Assembly: GCA_900696465.1 (NCBI GenBank)
Contig: CAADGE010000033.1
Location: forward strand, 1 to 64,000
Direction of reading: 5' to 3'
Length of the DNA stretch: 64,000 bases
From: an uncultured Planctomycetota bacterium
Lineage (GTDB): Bacteria > Planctomycetota > Phycisphaerae > UBA1845 > UTPLA1
Part shown: positions 2,962 to 35,319 of the stretch, piece by piece
Position numbering within the stretch: position 1 is the stretch's first letter
Layout of the letters: each line of letters opens with the position of its first letter
Notes under the pieces: generated by a model
Told to the model about the DNA's origin: nothing
The model's input: the letters and a program-made list of their open reading frames with translations, nothing else
The model's database searches: none
Program-made: the position numbers and the translations under genes

Positions 2962-4631
2962 ATTTCGTTCATTTCGTACGGGTGGTGCGATGGTTGGGCT
3001 GGGTCGCAGCGGCGGCCTCGGTCGGCATCGTGCTTGTCGCACTGGTTTACGAAGCGATCAGCGGTCCGCATGCCGGGCAGGACTGGTGGCCCGCGGCGAG
3101 AATCTGGCGGCAACTTCGGACGACCGTCTGGATGGCCGGTGCGTCGACGCTGCTGGCGTTTCTGCTAGCGCTTCCCGCTGTCCTGGCACTGACGCAGACG
3201 GCTCACGGATGGCCGCGTCGCCTGCTCTCATCGATGATCGTCGTGCCGCTGGTAACCATGCCGGGCGTTTTCGCCTATGCCTGGATGCTCCTGTCGACAC
3301 AGCGGCATGGCATCATTGCGAAACTGCTGGGCATCGTCGGCTGGAACACACCGGGACTTGAAGCGCTACAGTCCGCCTGGGTGATGGCGACCTGGCTGTG
3401 GCCGATTCCTGCGCTGGTCATGGCGGCATCATTCGAGCATGGCGGGCGTGTCGGGTATCAACTGGCGCGACTGGATGCATCGGTGACAGCGGCGTTTCTT
3501 CGTGGAGCCCTGCCAATGATGCGTGCGCCGATCCTGGCCGCACTCGGCATTACGTTAATCCTGTCGGCGACGGACAGCACGGTGCCACCGCTCATGGCGG
3601 CAAGCGATGTCTGGGCCGTGGAGATGATGGCGCAGGCGTCAACATCCGCGAGATTCGATCGACCGGTGGGGTACCTGTTCTGGCAGGCCTGGCCGATGCT
3701 CGCATTGATCGCTTTGGTTGTGCTTGCAGCACTGCCGGGACTTCGGGCCATGGCGCAATGGGGAGAAAGCCACGATTCGTCCGATCTGGGCGGCGCGACG
3801 GCATCGCCTGGCGGCAACGTCGATCGAAGCAAGGCGCGCAGGCCCGGCATCACATGGGTCGTTTCGTGTCTGCTGGCAGCGGGCATTACGATCTTTCCGA
3901 TTGTGGTCTTTGCGATTGAACTCGGTAGCGGTCGCAGTTCCCTCACGGATACGTTGTCGACAGCGGCGCGAACCTTCCGCAACGATGGACTGGCCACGCT
4001 GATCGCGGGATTTCTGACGGGACTGTTCGCATGCTGCATTTCCACGGCGGCGATAATTGATCCGGATGATGGATGGGCCGCGCGCCTGGCGGCACGCGTG
4101 CTGACGGCCGGTGCGATCGTGACGGCCGTGCTGCCACCTGAGTTGACCGGGACGGCACTGGCATCATTTTATTCGCGCATCAGCGATCCGCTCTCACGCT
4201 GGAGCGTCTATGATTGTACGCCGTGGCCGTGGACGGCAGCGATGCTGGCGCGGTACGCATTCCTGCCGGTGTGCGTCGCCAACCTGTTGAATCGACGCAT
4301 ACCGGAAGGGCTGCTGGGTCAGGCGAGGGTGGACGGGACCACGGGGCTGGGTCGGATTGCCCATGTGCGATGGCCGTTACTGGCGCTGCCGCTCGCGGCA
4401 GCGGCGATGCTCAGCGGCTGTCTGGCGATTTCGGAAGTGGCATCGAGCGTGCTCGTGCAGCCGCCGAGGTTCTTCGGCGGGAGTCTTGCGGTCAAGGTGG
4501 ATATGCAGATGCACTATGGCCGTCAGGACGAGACGATCGCGATGAGTATGATGTTGATCGTGCCGGCGATGCTCGGCGCCAGCGCGGTGTTGATGCTGTT
4601 GCGAGGCCGGTCCAGACTGATGGGAAGGTAA
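2958..4631 (+). CDS. ABC transporter permease, two fused domains (FbpB-like)
   Basis: 557 residues with about 12 hydrophobic segments in two homologous halves, the usual size of iron(III)/thiamine-type permeases such as FbpB. Degenerate EAA-loop regions that should contact the ATPase occur around residues 170-200 (ARLDASVTAAFLRGALP) and 455-475 (GQARVDGTTGLGRIAHVRWP). The GTG start overlaps the binding-protein stop by 4 bp. No ATP-binding subunit follows; the next gene, 4 bp away, is an NHL lipoprotein. The ATPase must therefore be encoded elsewhere or be shared. Membrane location and family are clear from the sequence; the substrate is inferred from the partner gene. Confidence 0.8.
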   Translation: MNFVHFVRVVRWLGWVAAAASVGIVLVALVYEAISGPHAGQDWWPAARIWRQLRTTVWMAGASTLLAFLLALPAVLALTQTAHGWPRRLLSSMIVVPLVTMPGVFAYAWMLLSTQRHGIIAKLLGIVGWNTPGLEALQSAWVMATWLWPIPALVMAASFEHGGRVGYQLARLDASVTAAFLRGALPMMRAPILAALGITLILSATDSTVPPLMAASDVWAVEMMAQASTSARFDRPVGYLFWQAWPMLALIALVVLAALPGLRAMAQWGESHDSSDLGGATASPGGNVDRSKARRPGITWVVSCLLAAGITIFPIVVFAIELGSGRSSLTDTLSTAARTFRNDGLATLIAGFLTGLFACCISTAAIIDPDDGWAARLAARVLTAGAIVTAVLPPELTGTALASFYSRISDPLSRWSVYDCTPWPWTAAMLARYAFLPVCVANLLNRRIPEGLLGQARVDGTTGLGRIAHVRWPLLALPLAAAAMLSGCLAISEVASSVLVQPPRFFGGSLAVKVDMQMHYGRQDETIAMSMMLIVPAMLGASAVLMLLRGRSRLMGR

Positions 4632-4635
4632 ACAC

Positions 4636-5649
4636 GTGAACGCCCGTGAAGTAATTTCGTGCCGATGCGAACAGCGCATGTCTTGCGCTTTGCACGGACC
4701 GGGTCGGGCGGTACGCACGGATCAGCGGCGTCTTCCTGCTTATTTCATAGAGCTTGCAGTCTTTACGACCCTTCTATTGGTTGGATGCAGCGGGGAAAGC
4801 GCCGACGAGTCGGCAGTGCGGAATGTCTTTGGCGGACCGGGATTGTCGCCGGGGCAGTTCAGCTATCCGCGGGCGCTGACGGTTTCACCGGTCGACGGCT
4901 GCGTCTATATCGTCGACAAGACGGCACGGATTCAGCGCTTCAGCGCCGACGGCAACTATGAGCATCAGTGGCGGATGCCGGAATACAAGAACGGCAAGCC
5001 GACCAGTCTGGCCGTGGACGGGCAGAATCGCATCTGGGTGGCCGACACACACTACGCGCGGGTGATGGCGTTTGATCGCGACGGGCAGGAACTTTTTCGA
5101 TTCGGCCGCGCCGGAGAAGGGCCGGGCGAGTTCATCTTTCCCTGCGCCGTGGCGATCGACGCAAAGGGTTATGTCTACGTGGGGGAGTACGGCGGGAATG
5201 ATCGGATCAGCATCTTCACGCCGGATGGGAAATATGTACGCAGTTTTGCGGATCGTGAGAGTGGAGATGCGTGGGTGGAGCGGCCGGTCGGCATGGCCTT
5301 TGACGCGGACGGTCAACTCTGGGTGACAGATTCGTGTCACCACCGGATCTGCTGCTTTCGCGATGACGGCACGCTGAAGGACAGCTTCGGCAGGGCAGGC
5401 AGCGGCAACGGCGAGTTCAACTATCCGTACGGGCTGGCGATTGAGAAAACGGGGACGATACTGATTGCGGATCGGGGAAACAATCGCATCGTACGAATGG
5501 ATCGCAGTGGACGATTTGTGTCCAGTTGGGGTACGGCGGGCCGCGCGGTAGGACAGATGGCGCAGCCGTGGGGGGTGGCCTGCGCGCTGCGGGGCAACAT
5601 CTACTGCCTGGACTCATGGAACAATCGCGTGCAGGTGATACACTGGTAG
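4636..5649 (+). CDS. NHL-repeat beta-propeller lipoprotein
   Basis: 337 residues from a GTG start with GGAAGG 8 nt upstream. The hydrophobic stretch ends in lipobox LVGC (Cys51), so the mature protein is likely a lipoprotein; the region before the hydrophobic core is long and basic. Six NHL-type blades follow, each with a pattern such as PTSLAVDGQNRIWVADTHYARV or PYGLAIEKTGTILIADRGNNR, which closes a six-bladed propeller. Such propellers act as binding scaffolds in the cell envelope and have no predicted catalysis here. The gene lies 4 bp after the permease, so it is probably in the same operon and may assist the importer, but nothing in the sequence proves this. Confidence 0.8.
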   Translation: MNAREVISCRCEQRMSCALHGPGRAVRTDQRRLPAYFIELAVFTTLLLVGCSGESADESAVRNVFGGPGLSPGQFSYPRALTVSPVDGCVYIVDKTARIQRFSADGNYEHQWRMPEYKNGKPTSLAVDGQNRIWVADTHYARVMAFDRDGQELFRFGRAGEGPGEFIFPCAVAIDAKGYVYVGEYGGNDRISIFTPDGKYVRSFADRESGDAWVERPVGMAFDADGQLWVTDSCHHRICCFRDDGTLKDSFGRAGSGNGEFNYPYGLAIEKTGTILIADRGNNRIVRMDRSGRFVSSWGTAGRAVGQMAQPWGVACALRGNIYCLDSWNNRVQVIHW

Positions 5650-26067: not shown

Positions 26068-28299
26068 TCAGGCACCGGAAACGACGGGGGCAACGCCGGG
26101 TTTCATATCATCGAGAATCTGCGAACCGTAGAGCGTCTGATAGAGCCGACAGCGTTCGATCAGCTCCTCGTGACGACCGCTGTCGACGATGCGTCCACGG
26201 TCCATGACCACGATTCGATCCGCCTGAAGGATGGTGGAGAAACGGTGGGCGATGATCAGGGCCGTGCGGCCTTCGAGGAACTTCTGCACGGCGTCGTGAA
26301 TCTTCTGTTCGCTTTCGCTGTCGATCTGGCTCGTGGCTTCGTCAAAGATGAAGATCGGAGCATTTCGCAGAATCGCACGGGCGATGGCAATTCGCTGCTT
26401 CTGTCCGCCGGAGAGCTGCGCACCATGTTCGCCGACGTAGGTGTCGTAGCCGTTGGGTTTTTCGCGGATGAACTCATCGGCGAAGGCCGCCTTCGCGGCG
26501 CCGACGATGCGGTCGAAATCAGGGTCGGGCCCGTCGGGGAAACGCTCCGGGTGCCGCCGCTTCAGCACGAGACGGCGAAGGAGCTTCTCATCGCCATAGG
26601 CGATGTTATTGGCCAGCGTGTCAGCAAACACGACCGTGTCCTGCGTGATCAGACTGATTTGACGGCGCAGAGAGTGAATGGAGCATTCGCGAACGTCGCG
26701 TCCGTCGAAGCAGATGCGGCCCTCGTCGGGTTCAAAGAATCGCATGAGCATGGCGAGCAGCGTCGTCTTGCCAGAACCGTTGGGCCCGACAAATGCGATT
26801 CGCTCGCCTCGGCGGACAATCAGGTCAATGCCGTCTAGTGCCGGTCGTTCACTGCCGGGGTAGCTGTATCGTACGCCTTGAAACTCAATCGCCTGGGCAA
26901 GCGGCGCCAAGGCAGCGCCGCGGCGCAGTCCTGCTTCTTCCACCGGGGCCTCAAGAACTTCAAAGACGCGATCCACTGCCGCATTGGCCTGCTGCACGCG
27001 ATTGTAGAACGAGGACATTTTTCGCACGGGATCGAACATGCCCGCCATGCAGGCCGCGAGCGTGGCGAAACGGGCGAAGTCCATTCGGTTGTCGAACATG
27101 AGACCGGCGAAGTAGATGATGCCCAGCGTGGCGACGGCAACACCCATGAGCTCAAAGGCGGGACCGGACAAGGCGTCGATCCGCTCGATTTTCATCTGCT
27201 GCTTGAGCATCTGGTTGTCGACGGCGTGCAGGTGGCGGCGCTCATAGCGCTCCATGGTGTAGCCCTTGACCACCCGGATGCCGATCAGCGCGCTTTCGAG
27301 GGCACTGAGCATGCGGCCGTAGCCCTCCAGCAGCCGCTTCTGGGCCTTGCGAATGAGTTTGCCGAAGCGACGGATAACCAGGCCGGCAACCGGGGCCACG
27401 ACCACAGTTACCAGTGTGATGCGCCAGTCGAGGAAGAGCGCCACGGCAAAGGCAAACATGGCCTTGAGCGGTTCGCGAAGACTCTTTGCAAAGACGAAGT
27501 TCAGACCGCGGAAGATGTCCTGGCTGTCCTGCACGAAACGGCTGACCGTATCGCTGATGCTGCCGGATGCGAAATAGGAAACAGGAAACCGGAGCACACG
27601 ATCGTACATCTTTCGTCGGATGGCGACGATCGTTCGGCCCGCGACCAGCGCGATCAGGTATTCACCAAAGAACCGACAGACGCCTCCGACGAGGGTGATC
27701 ACAAGCACGGCGGCCAGAAGAACGTACAGAGTTTTCATTCGGTCGTCGCGCGTGGTGCCCTGCGGCAGCTTCTCGGCGATACGACTCAGCCAGTACTCCG
27801 TGAAGGAGACCTCAGACGCTTCCACTGTTGCTGTGTAGCTGCGCCCCGTCGGAGGATGGAACAACTCAAGTCGGACGGAAGCGCTGTCCGGCAGCTGGGC
27901 GATCTCCCGCCAGGCATCCCTCGCGGAGAGGGTCCGCCCGTTGATGCTGCGGACGATGTCCTGTGCCGCGACGCCCTCGGGCAGCTTTTTCTTTCCGGTG
28001 GTGGCATAGACGCGCACGGCCCCATCACCCGGCGCGAGCAGAAAGCCCAGCCGCCGCTCGGCGACGTACTGATTGACCCACGCAGGCAGGCCTTGGTCGT
28101 CGGCAATAAGCTTGACTGTCGGGAGCATGGCAGCGATGTTCAGCGAGTAAGTCATCGCGAAGATGACGATGCAGATGAGGCCGGGGATCAGGTAGCGGTA
28201 GTACGCGCGGGCATACTTCATCACTCGAAGCAAATGGAGCGGAGAGCCGCCCTTGCGAGTAGTGATGACCATGTTGGCTTTCGGACCGAGATTCGCCAT
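26068..28299 (-). CDS. ABC exporter (fused permease-ATPase) with a periplasmic PDZ-like insert
   Basis: 743 residues from the ATG at 28299 with GAGG 6 nt upstream. TM1 (residues 38-58) is followed by an insert (about 70-165) that reads as a PDZ-like domain: LPEGVAAQDIVRSINGRTLS, then SVRLELFHPP. TM2 to TM6 follow. The nucleotide-binding domain has Walker A GPNGSGKT (505-512), signature LSGGQ (629-633) and Walker B IFIFDE (649-654). Overall it is MsbA/type IV exporter-like and should form a homodimer in the inner membrane, exporting a lipid or peptide. MsbA proteins lack this insert. It converges with the FHA/PP2C-like gene, 8 bp away. Confidence 0.85.
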   Translation of the reverse strand: MANLGPKANMVITTRKGGSPLHLLRVMKYARAYYRYLIPGLICIVIFAMTYSLNIAAMLPTVKLIADDQGLPAWVNQYVAERRLGFLLAPGDGAVRVYATTGKKKLPEGVAAQDIVRSINGRTLSARDAWREIAQLPDSASVRLELFHPPTGRSYTATVEASEVSFTEYWLSRIAEKLPQGTTRDDRMKTLYVLLAAVLVITLVGGVCRFFGEYLIALVAGRTIVAIRRKMYDRVLRFPVSYFASGSISDTVSRFVQDSQDIFRGLNFVFAKSLREPLKAMFAFAVALFLDWRITLVTVVVAPVAGLVIRRFGKLIRKAQKRLLEGYGRMLSALESALIGIRVVKGYTMERYERRHLHAVDNQMLKQQMKIERIDALSGPAFELMGVAVATLGIIYFAGLMFDNRMDFARFATLAACMAGMFDPVRKMSSFYNRVQQANAAVDRVFEVLEAPVEEAGLRRGAALAPLAQAIEFQGVRYSYPGSERPALDGIDLIVRRGERIAFVGPNGSGKTTLLAMLMRFFEPDEGRICFDGRDVRECSIHSLRRQISLITQDTVVFADTLANNIAYGDEKLLRRLVLKRRHPERFPDGPDPDFDRIVGAAKAAFADEFIREKPNGYDTYVGEHGAQLSGGQKQRIAIARAILRNAPIFIFDEATSQIDSESEQKIHDAVQKFLEGRTALIIAHRFSTILQADRIVVMDRGRIVDSGRHEELIERCRLYQTLYGSQILDDMKPGVAPVVSGA

Positions 28300-28432: not shown

Positions 28433-28750
28433 TCAGGGTGTCAGAAACAGACCGGTACGACGTTCGTAGGTGACTTCTTCCGCGTTGAAGCGGGAGGAGC
28501 CCTCGGCACGGAGTCGAGGTGCGTGGTCGCGCAGATATTGCTCGAAGGCCGTGCGTGAGGCGAACTCATATTGCACGAGGTAACGATGGGGCTTGCCGTC
28601 AAGCTGCACCAGCCGGCCGCGAATTGCCCCGGCCTGAACGACGTCAGCAATGTGTTCTTCGCAGATCCATCGGGCCCATGCCGCAGCAGTCGCCTCATCC
28701 GCGATGGTGGCGGTCACTTCGTAGTAAGATGGGTGGGATGGCTGCGACAT
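28433..28750 (-). CDS. DUF4286 family protein
   Basis: 105 residues from the ATG at 28750, which overlaps the upstream stop as TGATG; a GTG at 28753 is the alternative. The core YEVTATIADEATAAAWARWI with YLVQYEFASRTAFEQYLRDH matches DUF4286, a small ferredoxin-like (dimeric alpha-beta barrel) fold family. Function unknown; no catalytic residues are evident. It is translationally coupled to the secreted nuclease-like gene but is itself cytoplasmic. Confidence 0.8.
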   Translation of the reverse strand: MSQPSHPSYYEVTATIADEATAAAWARWICEEHIADVVQAGAIRGRLVQLDGKPHRYLVQYEFASRTAFEQYLRDHAPRLRAEGSSRFNAEEVTYERRTGLFLTP

Positions 28751-30612
28751 CACGGTTGGAGAAAGGCCTGTACAAAAAGCGCGATGTCCTGTCCGTCGGT
28801 CGTGCCGGACTGATCAAAGTCGGCGCGCTCCAGCGGACACTCAGATGTCTCCAGCCCCAGCAGAACTTCAACCAGGGCGATCACGTCATCCAAGTTGATA
28901 AATCCGTCGCAATTCACATCGGCGCTGGCACTCGGTACTACGACCTGAATGGTGAGGAACAGCGTGCTTGAGGTTTCTCCAGGCAGGTCTTCATCGCTCG
29001 TGTGGAGGGTCAGCTCGTGTGTATAGGTACCTGCTTCGAGGCCGGTCGTATCAAAGCTGAAGCTGAGTGTTGCCGGAGTAGCGCCGATCTGATTCGGCAG
29101 TGATCCGGGCAGCGCCAACGGTGCTGCGAGACCATCCACTGTGTCCACATCCAGCAAGGCCTGGTTCTCGTCGAATCCGCGATTGTAGATTTCCACGTCG
29201 ATCGTATGGGCGCCCGTGTTCGCGGACAGTGTCATCGACAGCTGCTTGTTGGTGATGGAGGCATCGGCGTCGAACGTGGGCTGAGAGGTGCGAACAATTC
29301 GGCCTGTGATGTTCATCGTGACCGGCGAGCCCTGCACCGCCTGGCTGCTGCTGGTGACCTGAACGCCAGCAACGGCCGCGCCGACCACCGCGGTATCGAC
29401 GGGGAGCGAAACGAGCGTGGGAGGCGCCAACGAGGGAATGAAGCCGCTGTCAGTCCCTGAGAGGAAGCCGGAGCTGGTCACCTGGTATTGCAACAGGTCT
29501 GCGCCCGCCGATACGACGACGTTCGCAGCGTTTGCAAGGGTCAATTCAACGGCAAATTCAGCACCCTGAATGACGCGTCCGAAATCCTCGGGCAGGTTTG
29601 CTTCAAGAACTGCGGGAATCTGATACTCCGCAACGACAGGAACATGATCCGAGGCCACTTTCAGGTGGTTGGCCAGTGCGTTGGAACGCGGGATATCCGA
29701 CGGGTAGTAGCTGTTGTTGCCTGCGTTGATGTCGGTGTCGTAGTGATTGCCATCGTTGCCGAACGAGCGATACGTGCCCGGCATGATCGACAGGCCGGCG
29801 CCGTCGTGAAACGCGGCGGTGGAGAGCTGAAAGTCGAAGCGGTCGTCCATTCCGCCTGCGACGAGTGTGCAGCCATTTCGGCAGGGGGATTGCGTGTGCT
29901 TGATTGCGTTGGAGGCGCTCGCCCAGGAACCCGTGCCAAGCGGATCGAGCGCCTGTGCGACGCCGGGCATAATGAATCGCTGGTAGGCCGGCTCGTTGTT
30001 GTGGTACACGTTGAAGTCACCGCCGAAAATGATGTGCGAGCCAGGGGGGAGGGCATCGGCGTTGTTGCGTATGGCGATTGCACCCGTCAGGCGGGTCTGC
30101 TCATTGGTCGACCCGGTCGAGGCCTTCAGGTGCGTGCTGTAAATGTAGAACATCGCATCAGGCGCATCATAACCGACCAGCCGCAACTGCCAGCGGTCGC
30201 TGTAGCGACCGGCCTGTGTAAAGATGTCGACGTGTCCGGCAGGATTCTCGACCAGCACATCGGGGCGATAGTACATCGCCTGGGCACCGGCCGTGCCGTT
30301 TTCGTTGAAGTTCGTATAGGTGCCCTGCACGTAGCTGACGCCCGGCGGTGCAGCGGCGTTGAGCATGTTCAGCAGCGGGCCCGTGTTGGTCGTTCGCACT
30401 TCCTGAAAGATGTAGAGATGCGGTGCCATTGCGAAGCCGGGCTTGTCATCGTTGTTCAGCGCGGCGAAGACCGCCTGCATGGAGGTCATGTTTCCGCCGA
30501 GCTGGGCGACGTTGAAATTGACGATTCGAAGCTGACCGGCGGCGGGCGAAGCGGCCGCTGCGAAACAGGTGATAGAAAGCAGGATACGTTGTCGGAGAAG
30601 AAACGGCTTCAT
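28750..30612 (-). CDS. Secreted endonuclease/exonuclease/phosphatase-family protein with C-terminal dockerin-like repeats
   Basis: 620 residues. The signal peptide ends in SPAAGQ. Residues about 27-330 follow the EEP fold: RIVNFNVAQLG at the start, IFQEVRTTN with the metal-binding Glu, YSTHLKAS with the His, IFGGDFNVYHNN with the D-x-N pair, and KVASDHVPVV with the terminal D-H. These are the catalytic residues of Mg-dependent phosphoesterases and nucleases. Two beta-sandwich segments follow, then two dockerin-like repeats (DVNCDGFINLDD and DFDQSGTTDGQD) and the end FVQAFLQP. It is probably an extracellular nuclease or phosphodiesterase. Confidence 0.85.
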   Translation of the reverse strand: MKPFLLRQRILLSITCFAAAASPAAGQLRIVNFNVAQLGGNMTSMQAVFAALNNDDKPGFAMAPHLYIFQEVRTTNTGPLLNMLNAAAPPGVSYVQGTYTNFNENGTAGAQAMYYRPDVLVENPAGHVDIFTQAGRYSDRWQLRLVGYDAPDAMFYIYSTHLKASTGSTNEQTRLTGAIAIRNNADALPPGSHIIFGGDFNVYHNNEPAYQRFIMPGVAQALDPLGTGSWASASNAIKHTQSPCRNGCTLVAGGMDDRFDFQLSTAAFHDGAGLSIMPGTYRSFGNDGNHYDTDINAGNNSYYPSDIPRSNALANHLKVASDHVPVVAEYQIPAVLEANLPEDFGRVIQGAEFAVELTLANAANVVVSAGADLLQYQVTSSGFLSGTDSGFIPSLAPPTLVSLPVDTAVVGAAVAGVQVTSSSQAVQGSPVTMNITGRIVRTSQPTFDADASITNKQLSMTLSANTGAHTIDVEIYNRGFDENQALLDVDTVDGLAAPLALPGSLPNQIGATPATLSFSFDTTGLEAGTYTHELTLHTSDEDLPGETSSTLFLTIQVVVPSASADVNCDGFINLDDVIALVEVLLGLETSECPLERADFDQSGTTDGQDIALFVQAFLQP

Positions 30613-30820
30613 GTGACTTTTTGGAATCCAGTCAGGGCTCGGTAGACGGCGGAATCATTTCGCGCCCTTCGCGACCGCTGGGGTCGAATCGGCAGGGCGG
30701 AGCAGGGGGTCGGATGCTATCTACGAGTATATCGACTCGCGGCCTGTATGGGGCGCAAAAATTGCCCGGCACGATCGGAAAAGTCGCCGCAGTTCAACCG
30801 AAAATTCGGCAATAATTTAT

Positions 30821-30850
30821 TTGACGCTCCGGCTTCCAGATCGGTAGACT
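30821..30850 (+). promoter_or_regulatory. Strong promoter of the orphan RNA
   Basis: TTGACG (30821-30826), 18-bp spacer, TAGACT (30845-30850), preceded by an AT-rich block (AATAATTTAT, 30811-30820) like an UP element. The -10 and spacer length are the same as at the rpsL promoter. Confidence 0.65.
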
Positions 30851-31058
30851 CCGGTAGTGGACCGAAGCCGCCGCTCGGCGAGTTCTCCTGAAATGGGTGG
30901 AGATCGCTGCGGATGGCGACGGTTCATGGCGGGCGGCATCCTTCGGGGTTCGCCCGTACCGGGTCCGCCGACGACGGCCGGCGGACAGGTCCAGGCCCGA
31001 CGTCGCCGAATACCTCGGCGCATGTTCGGGGAGTTGGCCCTGTGAGAGGAGGTGATCC

Positions 31059-31091
31059 GTGGATATAGGTAAACGTAGGAAGCTGCTGTAA
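31059..31091 (+). CDS. Ten-codon mini-ORF inside the orphan RNA
   Basis: GTG start preceded by AGGAGGTGATCC (31047-31058), 12 nt complementary to the conserved 3' end of 16S rRNA. The peptide would read MDIGKRRKLL, then TAA. The stop directly follows the 5' arm of the 31079-31124 hairpin, so a terminating ribosome would block that stem. Whether it is a true peptide gene or only a ribosome-docking site cannot be told. Confidence 0.4.
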   Translation: MDIGKRRKLL

Positions 31092-31135
31092 GGCAGTGAA
31101 CGTGGCTGCCGAGAAAGCAGCTTCAACATGAATGG

Positions 31136-31173
31136 CCCGCCGGTGCATCCTTGTGATCCCGGCGGGTTTTTTT
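31136..31173 (+). terminator. Intrinsic terminator of the orphan RNA
   Basis: CCCGCCGG (31136-31143) pairs with CCGGCGGG (31159-31166) and is followed by seven T residues. This is the clearest rho-independent terminator in the window. Confidence 0.85.
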
Positions 31174-31202: not shown

Positions 31203-32105
31203 TCACCACGACTGATCCTCGAACTCCATGTCCGGCGTCAGCACGAAATGAAACCGTTTCGGGTCAATCTCCACATTCACTTCGATGTCGCGGATTTCAG
31301 TGACCTGCATCACATTATCGAACCGGTCGAAGTTTACGGTTTTCACCATCACGGGGATGTCCTGCCGGAAGTAGGTATCGGTTTTGATCCGAAGCAGTTC
31401 GTCTTCGCTCTTCTTCACGGCACGCAGCACCCAGACGGCGTTGCCCTGAAACTGATCATCCGGCATGACGATGACTTCATAGTCGCGGTCGAGGAAAAAG
31501 AAGAATTCCTCGCTGGGGACCGATGTCTGTAACTTGTCGATGTTGGCCTTGATCGCCGCTTTTTTGCCGTCAAACTCGCCGATCTGATACATGTACTCCC
31601 CGTCGCACAGCATCACCTGCTTCTCGGTGGTTCTTGTTTCCTCACCGTCGCCGAAGCGGTGGGTGTCGACTGTCATGTCGAAGCGATAAAAGACCTTCTC
31701 TCCTCTGAACACATACTCCACCGTGCCGTGCGTGTGGCTCTTGACCCACGCGCCGGCATACGACGAATCGAAGCGTACGTCGATTTTTCCCCGAAAAGAT
31801 TGGATCGTCCCGCGGAGGGCGAGAATCTTGTCACGCAGAGAATCGAACGTTTCTGTAACAGGCGTAGTCGCCCCGGCTGCGGGCTCTGCCGGTGGTTCAG
31901 ACGGAGGCGCTGGTCGAGGCGATTCGTGCTGAGCGCGATCCGGAACTGCTGCGGCCGGCGATTCATGTACCGGCGAACCGTCCTGTACTGAGGATTCGGT
32001 GGTGACCGCCGGCTGCTTCGGCTCTGCCTCCGGCTTGCAGCCGGTGGACGTGAATACGAGAAGGGCGGGTAACATATTCAGAACAATCCGCTTGGGTACG
32101 TGCAT
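31203..32105 (-). CDS. LolA-like lipoprotein
   Basis: 300 residues from the ATG at 32105 with GGAG 8 nt upstream; a longer frame starting at 32123 lacks an SD. The lipobox is TSTGC, followed by a Pro/Ala/Glu-rich linker of about 65 residues. The rest is a beta-rich domain of the LolA/LppX-type fold: IQSFRGKIDVRF, HGTVEYVFRGEKVFYRFDM, QVMLCDGEYMYQI, WVLRAV. It could carry or sense lipids or lipoproteins in the envelope. The neighbours give no further hint. Confidence 0.6.
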   Translation of the reverse strand: MHVPKRIVLNMLPALLVFTSTGCKPEAEPKQPAVTTESSVQDGSPVHESPAAAVPDRAQHESPRPAPPSEPPAEPAAGATTPVTETFDSLRDKILALRGTIQSFRGKIDVRFDSSYAGAWVKSHTHGTVEYVFRGEKVFYRFDMTVDTHRFGDGEETRTTEKQVMLCDGEYMYQIGEFDGKKAAIKANIDKLQTSVPSEEFFFFLDRDYEVIVMPDDQFQGNAVWVLRAVKKSEDELLRIKTDTYFRQDIPVMVKTVNFDRFDNVMQVTEIRDIEVNVEIDPKRFHFVLTPDMEFEDQSW

Positions 32106-32422
32106 CTCACAATCTCCAGACACGTATCTTCCTGCTCAGGCCTTGGTTGGCAACTGGAGAGTTCGAACTCTGATCGCCATCATAGGCACCAACGGGCTTT
32201 CGTCCATGCGACGGATTGTAATCGATGACGGCGAAACCAGCTGATCGGGCGAGGTTCCGGGCCTTGCGTTTGAGTTATCGGCGCTTGCATTCCTGCCCCT
32301 GCCACATCACGAATCGCTTGGTGCGGCGGCACCTTACGCGGTACAATGAAACGGTACGCTCGAAGTGAGCGGGGGACACGGCGAAGTGGATGACGTAACG
32401 ACGCCATCGCACGGGGGAAGCC
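32106..32422. other. Divergent intergenic region
   Basis: It lies between the LolA-like gene (minus) and the small lipoprotein gene (plus). It holds the plus-strand promoter at 32318-32347 and a 14-bp palindrome AGAGTTCGAACTCT around 32158-32171, which may be an operator. No further gene is seen. Confidence 0.45.
32318..32347 (+). promoter_or_regulatory. Promoter of the small lipoprotein gene
   Basis: TTGGTG (32318-32323), 18-bp spacer, TACAAT (32342-32347). Predicted start near 32354, giving a leader of about 69 nt. Confidence 0.45.
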
Positions 32423-32923
32423 GTGAAACGACATCTTCTGATTCTGGGTTTTCTGTCTGCCTTTTGCGGCTGCGGCGCAGGTGGTGCAGGCGGCGGGATC
32501 GGTGGAGGCGGTGGCATAGTCCCATTGCCGCTTCCGATTCCCATCGTTCTGCCGATTCCGGCGAGCGCGCTCCTGAATAACGAGGAACTTCTGGAAGGAA
32601 ACTGGACCCTGAGTGATTCCGCTGCGGCGCGATCGTGCCTTGTCATCCAGGAACTGCGAGTATCCATCATCGACGTCAGTTGCAGCCCGAACGGATCCGG
32701 GATGTCTTCGCGTATCTTTGACGCCCCCCTCATCACGCGAGCCGGCGACACGATTATCCTACGTGTGACCTACAACCTGCGAGCCAATCCTGAACGCAAA
32801 CTGCGGCTGGTTTTCACCGGAGAATTGCAGGCCGACGGGAGCTTCATCGGTTTTCGTCGGGACGAGGACCTCACAGCCGGCACGGTCATTCCGGAACGTT
32901 TCGCCATCCTGACCCGCTCGTGA
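32423..32923 (+). CDS. Small secreted lipoprotein of unknown function
   Basis: 166 residues from a GTG with GGGGGAAG upstream. The signal ends in an AFCGC-type lipobox (Cys16 or Cys18), followed by a Gly-rich run and a Pro/Ile-rich stretch (VPLPLPIPIVLPIP) that would span the envelope as an extended linker. The rest (about 115 residues) is a beta-rich domain with two Cys (ARSC, DVSC) that could form a disulphide, and a lipocalin-like LRLVFTGELQADGSF strand. No family is recognised. It is monocistronic. Confidence 0.6.
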   Translation: MKRHLLILGFLSAFCGCGAGGAGGGIGGGGGIVPLPLPIPIVLPIPASALLNNEELLEGNWTLSDSAAARSCLVIQELRVSIIDVSCSPNGSGMSSRIFDAPLITRAGDTIILRVTYNLRANPERKLRLVFTGELQADGSFIGFRRDEDLTAGTVIPERFAILTRS

Positions 32924-33261
32924 CTCGTCAACCGTGCGATCGGGGCCTTTCTCGCCACAATTTCGACATCGATTTGACCGAAAATCCACGAGAAGTGACC
33001 CCGCAAGGGGCTTGGACTCGCGAGCTACGTCTGTTATCATGATACTAAGGACAACCTGCGAACGGGTGGCTATTGCCCCCACGGACCGCATTCGCGATGT
33101 CTGTACCCCTCGAACTTGGGGTCGTTCAGAGGCCCGACCGCCTCGCTAGAGCCACGTCCGATTGACACATTCCGTAAGGTGCAGAACGTAGCGGTGTTAC
33201 GTCCGACATGTTTTTCACGGTTGGAAAGCATGTCCGGGCGATCGTTTGTGGGAGTACTAGA
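32924..33261. other. Long leader region of the subtilase gene
   Basis: The promoter at 33012-33040 leaves a leader of about 215 nt before the GTG start. Within it CCCC-N8-GGGG (around 33107-33122) and GACATG/CATGTC (around 33207-33235) can pair, so a regulatory fold is possible. No gene is seen here. Confidence 0.35.
33012..33040 (+). promoter_or_regulatory. Promoter of the subtilase gene
   Basis: TTGGAC (33012-33017), 17-bp spacer, TATCAT (33035-33040). Predicted start near 33047. Confidence 0.5.
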
Positions 33262-35319
33262 GTGATTCCATCATCCAGAACCTTCAAGGCAAGTCTGATC
33301 GCATTCTGTCTGGCCGCGCTGGTCGTAGTCGCGCCGGTCGCGGCGCAGGGCAAAGGCGCCCCGGTAGCCGCTGAATTCAGTGCACCGGAGCCCGCGGCAC
33401 TACACCTCAAGACCGGTAAGGTGGATCTATCTCGCGAACTTTCACTGCACGCGGTGCAGGCCGGCCCGCTCGCGAAGGCAGGGCACTACGTGCTCCAGCT
33501 CGATGGCCCATTGAATCCTGACCGGCTAGCGGCGCTGAATGCCGCGGGGATCGAGTTGGGCCAGTATCTCCCGATGCATTCCTACATCGTTCGTCTGGAA
33601 GCCGGTGACCATCCCGCGCAGATGCTGGGTGGTCTGGACTTTGTTCGCTGGGTCGGCCCCTTCGACAAAAGCTGGAAACTGTCTCCCGAGATCGGTCAGC
33701 CGATCTACCAGACCGCCGAGCGAATCGAACTGGCGCATCAGGGTATTCTCAAGCTGACTGTCGCGTTGTTCGAGGGTGAAGATATCAATGCCGCCGAAGG
33801 CGCGCTCGCAGCGATGCCGGGCGTGACCGTTCTGGACAAGTCCATGAGCGGCGATGTCGGCCTGATCGAGATTACCATTCCGCAGGGTAACTACACCGCG
33901 CTGGCCGATCTTGAGTCAGTGCAGTGGGTCGAGGAGGCGGGCGAAGCGACCTACCGCAACGACACGAACGGCTGGATTCTGCAGAGCAACATCTCCAATG
34001 TGCGTTCGATCTGGGACAAGGGCATTCGTGGAGAAGGGCAGGTCGGCGGCCACATCGACGGCGCCGTACGGCAAACGCATTGCTCGTTCACGGATACCAA
34101 CAAGATCGTCGCCTACTTCGGCTCGACGGGGTCTGACTCGCACGGCACGCACACGGCCGGTACCTTCGTTGGCGATGAGCGACCTGGCAACGGGATCGGC
34201 TTCCGCGGAATGGCTTATCGAGCCAAACTGGCCTTTACCAATCTGAGCTCCGTCACATCGACGAATCTGCTATCCAAATTTGTGCAGGACCACAATGCCG
34301 GGGCGAGCGTCCACAGCAACAGCTGGGGCAACGACGGCACGACGGCTTATACCGCATGGTCCCGCGATATCGATATCTTCAGCTTCAACAATGAGAACGA
34401 CCTGGTGCTGTTCGCCGTGACCAACATCAACGGTGCCGTCCGCACGCCGGAAAATGCAAAGAACTGTCTGGCCGTGGCCGCCTGTACCGACACGCCCGCC
34501 AACAGTCACTGCTCCGGCGGTTTCGGCCCCACGCAGGACGGTCGGCAGAAGCCGGAACTCATGGCGCCGGGCTGTTCCACCATTTCATCGCAGTCAACCA
34601 CGACCTGCGGCTTTGTGGGCTCCGGTTTCACCGGTACGTCCATGGCCTGTCCCGCCGTGGCTGGTGCGGGTTTGCTGGTTCGGCAATATTTCGTCGATGG
34701 GTTCTATCCGACGGGGGTTGCCAATGCGGTGAACAGCATTACTCCCAGCGGCGCGCTGATACGCGCGACGCTGATCAATTCCGGCGTGGATGTGACCAAC
34801 ATCGCCGGCTTCCCCAGCACACGCGAGGGAAACGGCCGTGTGTTGTTGGATAATGCCCTCTACTTTGCCGGCGAGAATCGAAACCTCATCGTGCTGGCGG
34901 ACATCCGCAATGCCCAGGGTCTGACGACTGGTCAGGAACTCGTCTTCCGGTTCAGTTGCCTCAATAACATTCACCCGGTGAAGGTCACGCTGGTTTGGAC
35001 GGAGAAGGAAGCGGCGCTGAATGCCAATCCTGCGTACATCAACAATCTGGATCTGCAAGTTCGCGCACCGAATCAGCAGACCTATCTGGGCAATGTCATT
35101 ACCAACGGGCAGTCCACAACCGGTGGCACGGCCGATATTCGTAACAACGTCGAACAGGCCATGTTTAACACACCAATGGTCGGACGCTACACGGTGACCG
35201 TGAAGGCGACCGCTGTGAACACCGCAACACCCCAGGGCTTCGCGCTGATCGCCACCGGGCCGATCACGGACCAGGTGACACCGACAGAGACGATCATCGA
35301 GCCGGTCTCTCCTCAATAG
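33262..35319 (+). CDS. Secreted subtilisin-like serine protease (S8)
   Basis: 685 residues from the GTG at 33262, chosen because GGAG lies 7 nt upstream and it yields a normal signal peptide ending in VAPVAAQ; an ATG at 33208 has no SD. A propeptide-like region of about 230 residues precedes the catalytic domain. The catalytic Asp is probably in GGHIDGAVRQTHCSF (the usual DTG reads DGA), the His is in HGTHTAGTFVG, the oxyanion Asn in HSNSWGNDG, and the Ser in GTSMACPAVAG. A C-terminal beta-sandwich (P/proprotein-like, NNLDLQVRAPNQQTYLGN) follows. It is an extracellular endopeptidase of the KP-43 kind. A strong terminator follows. Confidence 0.85.
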   Translation: MIPSSRTFKASLIAFCLAALVVVAPVAAQGKGAPVAAEFSAPEPAALHLKTGKVDLSRELSLHAVQAGPLAKAGHYVLQLDGPLNPDRLAALNAAGIELGQYLPMHSYIVRLEAGDHPAQMLGGLDFVRWVGPFDKSWKLSPEIGQPIYQTAERIELAHQGILKLTVALFEGEDINAAEGALAAMPGVTVLDKSMSGDVGLIEITIPQGNYTALADLESVQWVEEAGEATYRNDTNGWILQSNISNVRSIWDKGIRGEGQVGGHIDGAVRQTHCSFTDTNKIVAYFGSTGSDSHGTHTAGTFVGDERPGNGIGFRGMAYRAKLAFTNLSSVTSTNLLSKFVQDHNAGASVHSNSWGNDGTTAYTAWSRDIDIFSFNNENDLVLFAVTNINGAVRTPENAKNCLAVAACTDTPANSHCSGGFGPTQDGRQKPELMAPGCSTISSQSTTTCGFVGSGFTGTSMACPAVAGAGLLVRQYFVDGFYPTGVANAVNSITPSGALIRATLINSGVDVTNIAGFPSTREGNGRVLLDNALYFAGENRNLIVLADIRNAQGLTTGQELVFRFSCLNNIHPVKVTLVWTEKEAALNANPAYINNLDLQVRAPNQQTYLGNVITNGQSTTGGTADIRNNVEQAMFNTPMVGRYTVTVKATAVNTATPQGFALIATGPITDQVTPTETIIEPVSPQ

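Follow-up and report, generated by a model that had tools for sequence, protein, structure and literature searches.

The plus-strand stretch at 30821–31173 of the window, i.e. of the whole 64,000-nt stretch of DNA that was analysed, forms a complete transcription unit between two minus-strand genes, one divergent (28750–30612) and one convergent (31203–32123). The nearest plausible plus-strand gene downstream of the RNA begins at 32423. Judged from their translations only, 28750–30612 encodes an endonuclease/exonuclease/phosphatase-like secreted protein with a dockerin-like tail, 26068–28299 an ABC transporter with a PDZ-like insert, and 33208–35319 a subtilisin-like protease. The unit is composed as follows.

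About 30806–30820, plus strand: AT-rich stretch immediately 5' of the promoter
30821–30850, plus strand: sigma70-type promoter TTGACG-18-TAGACT (pattern scan and aligned relatives)
30821–30826, plus strand: −35 box TTGACG
30845–30850, plus strand: −10 box TAGACT, after a spacer of 18 nt
30857–31173, plus strand: predicted transcript of about 317 nt, from promoter and terminator, with its start inferred 7 nt past the −10 box
30884–30903, plus strand: 5'-domain hairpin TCTCC/GGAGA with loop TGAAATGGGT (sequence and alignment reading, by eye)
30963–30986, plus strand: hairpin GTCCGCCGAC-GACG-GCCGGCGGAC with loop GACG (pair covariation)
31047–31058, plus strand: extended Shine-Dalgarno sequence (SD) AGGAGGTGATCC, perfectly complementary over its 12 nt to the 16S 3' end
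31059–31091, plus strand: mini-ORF GTG...TAA with 10 sense codons, MDIGKRRKLL (sequence; in-phase stop kept in relatives)
31077–31082, plus strand: AGGAAG, the form that a second SD-like element takes in the window, 12 nt 5' of the stop (enrichment at group level)
31079–31124, plus strand: stop hairpin (fold; nested-form covariation)
31138–31173, plus strand: intrinsic terminator, a GC-rich hairpin (31138–31166) and T7 (31167–31173), read directly from the sequence

The promoter at 30821–30850 matches the consensus at 9 of 12 positions, and one such site was found where 0.4 were expected; taken alone, this score appears only mildly unusual. It becomes convincing because the relatives keep the same box: a pattern match places it upstream in 18 of 24 aligned loci, window included, and the other six (L006, L007, L009, L012, L014 and L019) show TTGA[CT], about 16 nt and [ACG]ATAAT when the alignment is inspected by eye. 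At the opposite end, the terminator at 31138–31173 was missed by the pattern scanner, which has a loop limit of 8. Terminator-like elements 3' of the stop are present in 111/117 members of the class set, 27/44 of the phylum set and 27/39 of the held-out set (all defined below), compared with 4, 3 and 1 of the respective shuffled counterparts. The fold of 30828–31173 has a minimum free energy z of −5.0, and none of 100 shuffles folded as low. A conserved RNA gene at 30821–31173 is near certain to be real, and the promoter, RNA, mini-ORF and terminator put forward in the original prediction were all recovered in the sequence.

A first DNA search returned clear relatives within the order, from which 24 loci, window included, were aligned. 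Three models were employed: R1, built from 23 relatives; R2, with the nested structure; and R3, with sequence only. R1 matched 89 of the 114 genomes of the order, once each (55 of 65 among good-quality genomes), and gave no match in 25, including G003 and G014, which belong to the same family and each consist of a single contig. At E 0.01, R1 matched 141 of 397 genomes of the class, a few with a second, weak match, and R2 matched 71 of 392 genomes sampled across the phylum, some of these matches being spurious. R3 at E 1e-4, with one match per genome listed, found 97 of the 392 phylum genomes, with no match in the remaining 295, and 128 of the 397 class genomes. A pattern scan of GTDB contigs yielded 22 loci, all with titles naming planctomycetes (Planctomycetota, Phycisphaerae, Phycisphaerales, Planctomycetaceae, Planctomycetia or planctomycete). 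The mini-ORF RNA thus appears in many branches of the phylum, though it is not detected in every genome; the covariance searches proposed in the original prediction have in this way revealed relatives across Planctomycetota.

Three sets of members underlie the counts. The class set began with 123 entries, namely 80 regions that were fetched, 38 loci from searches and 5 from the first search; removal of L084, which had no orientation, left 122, with 119 distinct cores and 117 distinct ORF windows. The weaker R1 matches of the class, from about E 7e-7 on, lie mostly outside it. For L074, L089, L092, L113, L131 and L132 the automatic start was an overlapping TTG or ATG 2 nt earlier, with frames of 60, 1, 3, 5, 1 and 5 codons, respectively, and the start was set by hand to the GTG at +11. 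The phylum set of 44 comprises 31 of 40 fetched R2 matches and 13 of 20 search loci, four of its members being from the window's class (L206, L209, L241 and L247). It is biased, because loci were dropped by eye for missing anatomy, partly on the ORF itself (L230, L231, L232, L234, L244, L246, L248, L256 and L257); one of them, L244, has an 11-codon frame and no other part of the anatomy. The other seven search loci were six duplicates of loci already included and L204, left out, whose 10-codon frame is nearly identical to that of L205. The held-out set consists of 40 members from R3's 97 genomes that were not used in any model; none was dropped, and starts were taken as the NTG nearest to +11.6. 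Some of these are near-identical (e.g. L308 and L326), and R3 itself contains the SD and start. In three genomes (G572, G688 and G717) the R2 and R3 matches lie at different places: R3 places L311 (G572) and L325 (G717) show the anatomy, R2 places L234 (G572) and L248 (G688) do not.

The extended SD AGGAGGTGATCC is complementary to GGATCACCTCCT of the same genome's own 16S, and the match is perfect over the 12 nt originally claimed. In the 4,143,326-base genome this 12-mer is present twice, once in the mini-ORF RNA and once in the 16S gene, on its opposite strand. Since the second copy is the 16S 3' end itself, the mini-ORF RNA is its only non-rRNA occurrence. The predicted duplex between the SD and the 16S tail amounts to −21.1 kcal/mol for the window RNA and −16.4 for the best among 257 long ORFs, each compared at its most favourable early start. 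The medians of these ORFs (−4.3 when the first start is used, −6.6 with the best one) belong to a genome that still uses ordinary SDs to some extent. Sequestration of the SD by an internal anti-SD was considered as well and looks lineage-specific. Upstream complements of at least 8 nt occur in 4/119 class members (0.8 expected from shuffles) and of at least 7 nt in 11/119 (4.8 from shuffles); downstream, there is no excess in the class at 7 nt (2/119 vs. 6.4), and complements of at least 8 nt occur in 4/44 of the phylum set (0.8). Four loci, L250, L255, L238 and L328, carry a 16S-3'-end-like GGATCACC or ATCACCTC 3' of the stop that could mask the SD in cis; all belong to family f52, outside the window's class, and the feature is not general among members of the RNA family.

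Two of the hairpins are conserved among relatives by compensatory changes, which bears out the well-paired stems of the original prediction. In the GACG-loop hairpin (30963–30986), 8 of 9 tested pairs show two-sided changes, with 25 compensatory cells, and 0/500 shuffles reach its compensatory cell number or covariation score. The stop hairpin consists of an outer 9-bp stem (31079–31087/31116–31124) and an inner stem (31092–31097/31105–31110) with loop GAACGTG; as had been noticed before, the mini-ORF stop follows directly on the 5' arm of the 9-bp stem, beginning 1 nt past it in the fold. Across 56 sequences this hairpin, in its nested form, is 91.2% paired and has 35 compensatory cells, a number that 0/500 shuffles reach; 28 of the 35 cells fall in one pair just inside the arm. 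Two of five covariation measures do not exceed shuffles, namely the number of pairs with two-sided change (reached by 132/500) and of further pair types (75/500), and the inner stem shows no two-sided change in the nested-form pair counts. RNAalifold had chosen a tandem arrangement, pairing arm 1 with arm 2 and arm 3 with arm 4, which was replaced by the nested form. The tandem form pairs 95.5% of cells (99% for arm 1 with arm 2), yet its covariation score is reached by 57/500 shuffles and its two helices have no covariation clearly beyond shuffles; the nested form is preferred because it alone covaries clearly. A switch between nested and tandem pairings is possible. As for the 5'-domain hairpin, many relatives have a similar stem and an A-rich loop ending in GG in the alignment.

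Predicted pairs enclose the stop in 99–100% of members, which says little by itself because shuffled members reach 90–93%. The number of pairs spanning the stop is 15.9 in the class set, 16.8 in the phylum set and 19.7 in the held-out set, as compared with 11.1, 12.0 and 13.0 after shuffling, so that in the class the predicted excess is only moderate. In L156, L158, L160, L172, L173, L174 and L176 an extra hairpin with a tRNA-T-loop-like sequence (e.g. GGGTGAGATTCCC) is located in the inner part of the stop hairpin.

A GACG, AACG or GGCGGG-type box is found 3' of the stop in 134/163 members, a count of a short pattern without chance control. A possible pairing of the CGACGGG loop with the 16S decoding region was dropped, as it concerns about 6 nt in part of the family and is absent elsewhere. 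Together with the terminator, the recurrence of loops on both sides of the ORF (GACG upstream, NACG or CGACGGG after the stop) is consistent with a base-pairing regulatory RNA, its conserved loops serving as seeds for mRNAs or a protein and its mini-ORF tuning stability or processing. Still, the most constant feature of the family is the SD and frame rather than the loops, and the box count carries the limit just given; we regard such a function as unlikely.

The mini-ORF of the window starts at the GTG at 31059 and stops at the TAA at 31089–31091. With the start taken as the NTG after the SD, an in-phase stop at codon 6–18 is present in 160/160 distinct members of the class and phylum sets, as compared with 14/160 in the +1 and 8/160 in the +2 frame. 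The held-out set gives 40/40, the other two frames 2/40 and 5/40. The ten-codon mini-ORF initially described therefore has a frame that is kept in members of many branches of the phylum. The amino-acid sequence behaves differently. Counted over 408 overlapping pairs of related ORFs, start and last two codons excluded, differences are distributed as 691/798/750 over the codon positions, i.e. with no third-position bias, and the changed codons of these pairs comprise 199 synonymous and 1290 nonsynonymous cases. Purifying selection on the amino-acid sequence was not found in either count, and a conserved peptide was rejected on these numbers: as the codon positions differ evenly, the peptide is not what is conserved. 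Reading frame and stop are under selection, the peptide apparently not, which points to a ribosome reading a short frame to its stop as the conserved property.

Certain residues do recur in the mini-ORF peptides (Cys, Arg-Trp and Gly-Leu), and in view of these a role of the peptide is possible. A dual-function RNA or small mRNA, with a peptide of 6–18 residues as product, would account for them as well as for the invariably kept frame and stop. Conversely, the codon statistics and the spread in length from 6 to 18 codons argue against it, and where Arg and Leu recur, their codons fall on the SD-like element and the hairpin arm. A peptide product is consequently judged quite unlikely.

The SD-like element in question lies upstream of the stop. 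Over the 14 nt from −18 to −5 relative to the stop, members pair more strongly with the 16S tail than do shuffles of the same letters, in which dinucleotides are not preserved: the mean duplex is −10.85 vs. −6.15 shuffled for the 40 held-out members, −9.97 vs. −6.23 for 44 members of the phylum set, and −6.88 vs. −5.08 for 106 class members. The best 7-mer begins 12–16 nt before the stop in 87/106, 38/44 and 33/40 members of the class, phylum and held-out sets, and a named motif (AGGNGG, GGAGG or AGGTG type) is found in 53/119, 31/44 and 29/40, respectively. The element is thus least enriched in the window's own class. A spacing of 12–16 nt would put the 16S tail on this second SD while the stop is read.

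Two further readings start from the strength of the first SD. The RNA could pair with the 16S 3' end as a maturation or quality-control factor that tests or guides 3'-end processing, translation being the read-out of a finished end. In favour of this role, the 16S 3' tail is covered by the complement, and some members have GAAAGGAGGTGATCCAG, which reaches into the flanking bases on either side. However, guiding needs neither an in-phase ORF with a stop nor a second SD, and a long SD could evolve in any ribosome-recruiting RNA, which leaves little probability for this role. Smaller still is that of a minigene-like sink, in which repeated initiation and early termination or drop-off would tie up initiator tRNA, particular tRNAs or recycling factors. 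A very strong SD and a very short ORF suit this function, as do the codons ATA and AGG of the window copy, which are rare in many bacteria. On the other hand, the codons are unconserved across families, the hairpins would be unnecessary, and ORFs of 6–18 codons are long for drop-off. The bar minigenes of phage lambda likewise combine a very short ORF with strong ribosome recruitment, but they are two-codon ORFs without such structure.

The genomic neighbourhood was compared for 23 loci with flanks, some shortened by contig ends. No neighbour is common to more than two loci, except for an ABC-transporter-like cluster in four. Among the shared neighbour pairs, L001 and L052 are close relatives, and those of L037 and L054 and of L039 and L041 lie at different distances from the RNA. 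A cis-regulated downstream gene was rejected, the next gene being convergent in the window and none being kept beyond locus pairs among the 23 loci, in agreement with the earlier statement that there is no target gene in cis. With one copy per matched genome of the order and no generally kept neighbour, the RNA probably acts in trans. In L040 and L047, mutually related small genes (8 and 2, respectively) are found beside the RNA on the opposite strand. Leader-peptide attenuators of the trp and tna type consist of a short ORF, competing helices and a terminator; the ORF and terminator have counterparts here, the competing helices a possible one. The mini-ORF RNA differs in having no close same-strand gene or generally kept neighbour, and no conserved regulatory codon was noticed in the mini-ORF. 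That the unit is such an attenuator, seen in its terminated off state, is highly improbable despite its SD, short ORF, alternative pairings and terminator, given the convergent next gene, the absence of a downstream gene kept beyond locus pairs among the 23 loci, and alternative helices without covariation clearly beyond shuffles.

Comparison with known RNA classes was based on Rfam 15. No family exceeded its cut-off across the whole window or in 20 further members tested, and a search of 901 bases around the RNA up to E 10 gave a single match, outside the RNA and on the other strand. The four housekeeping RNAs that the original prediction had set aside do not match at the RNA, and each is found elsewhere in the genome: tmRNA (RF00023) with a full-length match at G000:C42:109194-109545, 6S RNA (RF00013) with 49.6 bits at G000:C48:287694-287883, small SRP RNA (RF00169) with 41.1 bits at G000:C40:98047-98146, and RNase P RNA type A (RF00010) with 259.2 bits at G000:C35:133148-133680. 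The nearest known RNA, with a seemingly similar plan, is CC2171 (RF01867). The window region is not matched by it at E 10, nor is the window's own genome at E 1. Among 20 Planctomycetota loci, 10 are matched at E 1 or better, with 21.8–37.2 bits against a gathering score of 75, and the best four matches align on the extended SD and start. These weak matches are not specific, since unrelated control genomes match too (6/14 at E 1 or better, one above cut-off); the genera and species concerned are Bacillus subtilis, Caulobacter, Synechococcus, Thermus, Deinobacterium and Thermotoga. The designation "orphan" therefore stands in the sense that no Rfam family is reached above cut-off, and is weakened by the below-threshold matches that tie distant members to CC2171.

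Five alphaproteobacterial plasmid loci, two of them above the RF01867 cut-off, were examined for a closer comparison. Extended SD and GUG start, GAAAGGAGGUGAUCCAGUG, are shared base for base with L202 and L212 and with one difference with L164 and L205. In both kinds of RNA the short ORF ends within a predicted hairpin domain, which a terminator hairpin follows directly. Moreover, the peptides of L164 and L170 (family f20) start with MSDC and MSNC, those of the five alphaproteobacterial loci with MSHC. There are differences as well. The alphaproteobacterial ORFs have 24–26 codons as compared with 6–18 in Planctomycetota, and in 5/5 alphaproteobacterial folds CATTGTC, located beside the start, forms a helix with a GACAATG-like segment that precedes the terminator (in L262 one of the seven pairs is diverted), whereas the fold of the window RNA contains no helix between the first codons and the segment before the terminator. 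By eye, no GACGGG box or clear second SD was noticed in the alphaproteobacterial loci. The resemblance of MSHC to MSDC and MSNC makes descent from a common ancestor plausible; alternatively, the two groups could have converged on the 16S tail in their SDs. In L260, on a plasmid of Methylobacterium radiotolerans, the CC2171 RNA (2501–2674) and a full-length 16S rRNA match (3557–5037) lie about 0.9 kb apart. In the available portions of the literature, CC2171 is listed as a family or match in PMC11701678 and PMC5596092, and PMC4117421 reports, from ribosome profiling in Caulobacter, translation of two predicted ncRNAs, whose names are not given there; those portions of the three papers give no function for CC2171.

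The suggestion that the RNA "docks ribosomes or responds to translation" has become the best-supported reading, given an SD found nowhere else in the genome outside rRNA, a stop codon placed within a hairpin, and another SD-like element ahead of that stop. Accepting slightly less than even confidence, we favour a stand-alone, trans-acting RNA of housekeeping type with ribosome capture as its purpose. Transcription would start at the RNA's own promoter and end, with release of the RNA, at its own terminator, as suggested by the conserved signals. The extended SD would form a tighter duplex with the 16S 3' end than the starts of the 257 genes examined, a pairing evident from the sequence, and a ribosome would bind and initiate at the GTG. 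From the conservation of frame, stop and hairpin, the ribosome would read 6–18 codons into the 5' arm of the long hairpin and meet the stop there. With the stop in the A site, the second SD-like element, detected statistically about 12–16 nt before it, may pair with the 16S tail and hold the terminating or post-termination ribosome. The presence of the ribosome, not the peptide, would open the stop hairpin and could change how accessible the loop farther downstream (NACG within the class, frequently CGACGGG in other members of the phylum) is to a partner. The outcome would be a parking place for ribosomes, or a sensor of free, termination-competent ones, and the effect in trans might be exerted via the exposed loop or by the captured ribosome itself.

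Ribosome capture of this kind has partial parallels. Like tmRNA, the mini-ORF RNA is a structured RNA with a short frame that would engage ribosomes; tmRNA does so via its resume codon, whereas the mini-ORF RNA would initiate by its SD. In Bacteroidota, bS21 (rpsU) is controlled via an extended SD, and here as there a single transcript with an exceptionally strong SD may sense the state of the 16S 3' tail. It differs in that a ribosomal protein is the product in that case and none is made from the mini-ORF RNA, and in that the planctomycete genome still relies on ordinary SDs to a degree.

No description of the mini-ORF RNA was found by word searches of the open-licence literature, and to our knowledge few free-standing structured RNAs are kept so widely. 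As far as found, it appears to be a variant of a CC2171-like plan for which the literature examined, in the portions available, gives no functional characterisation. In its most far-reaching and rather doubtful form, our proposal is a new class of housekeeping RNA, of ancient origin in Planctomycetota and possibly common to Alphaproteobacteria as well: a mini-mRNA with two SDs, one loading the ribosome and one holding it at a stop in a hairpin, whose product would be the parked ribosome, as a gauge of or shelter for free ribosomes. The link between structure and translation is unusual in that frame and stop are selected and the peptide seemingly is not, and it illustrates that frame statistics can reveal an RNA whose ORF is conserved for a reason other than its peptide. 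Ribosome capture, if true, would amount to a device, made of RNA, by which ribosomes are sensed or stored, and would suggest a function for the alphaproteobacterial CC2171 RNA as well.
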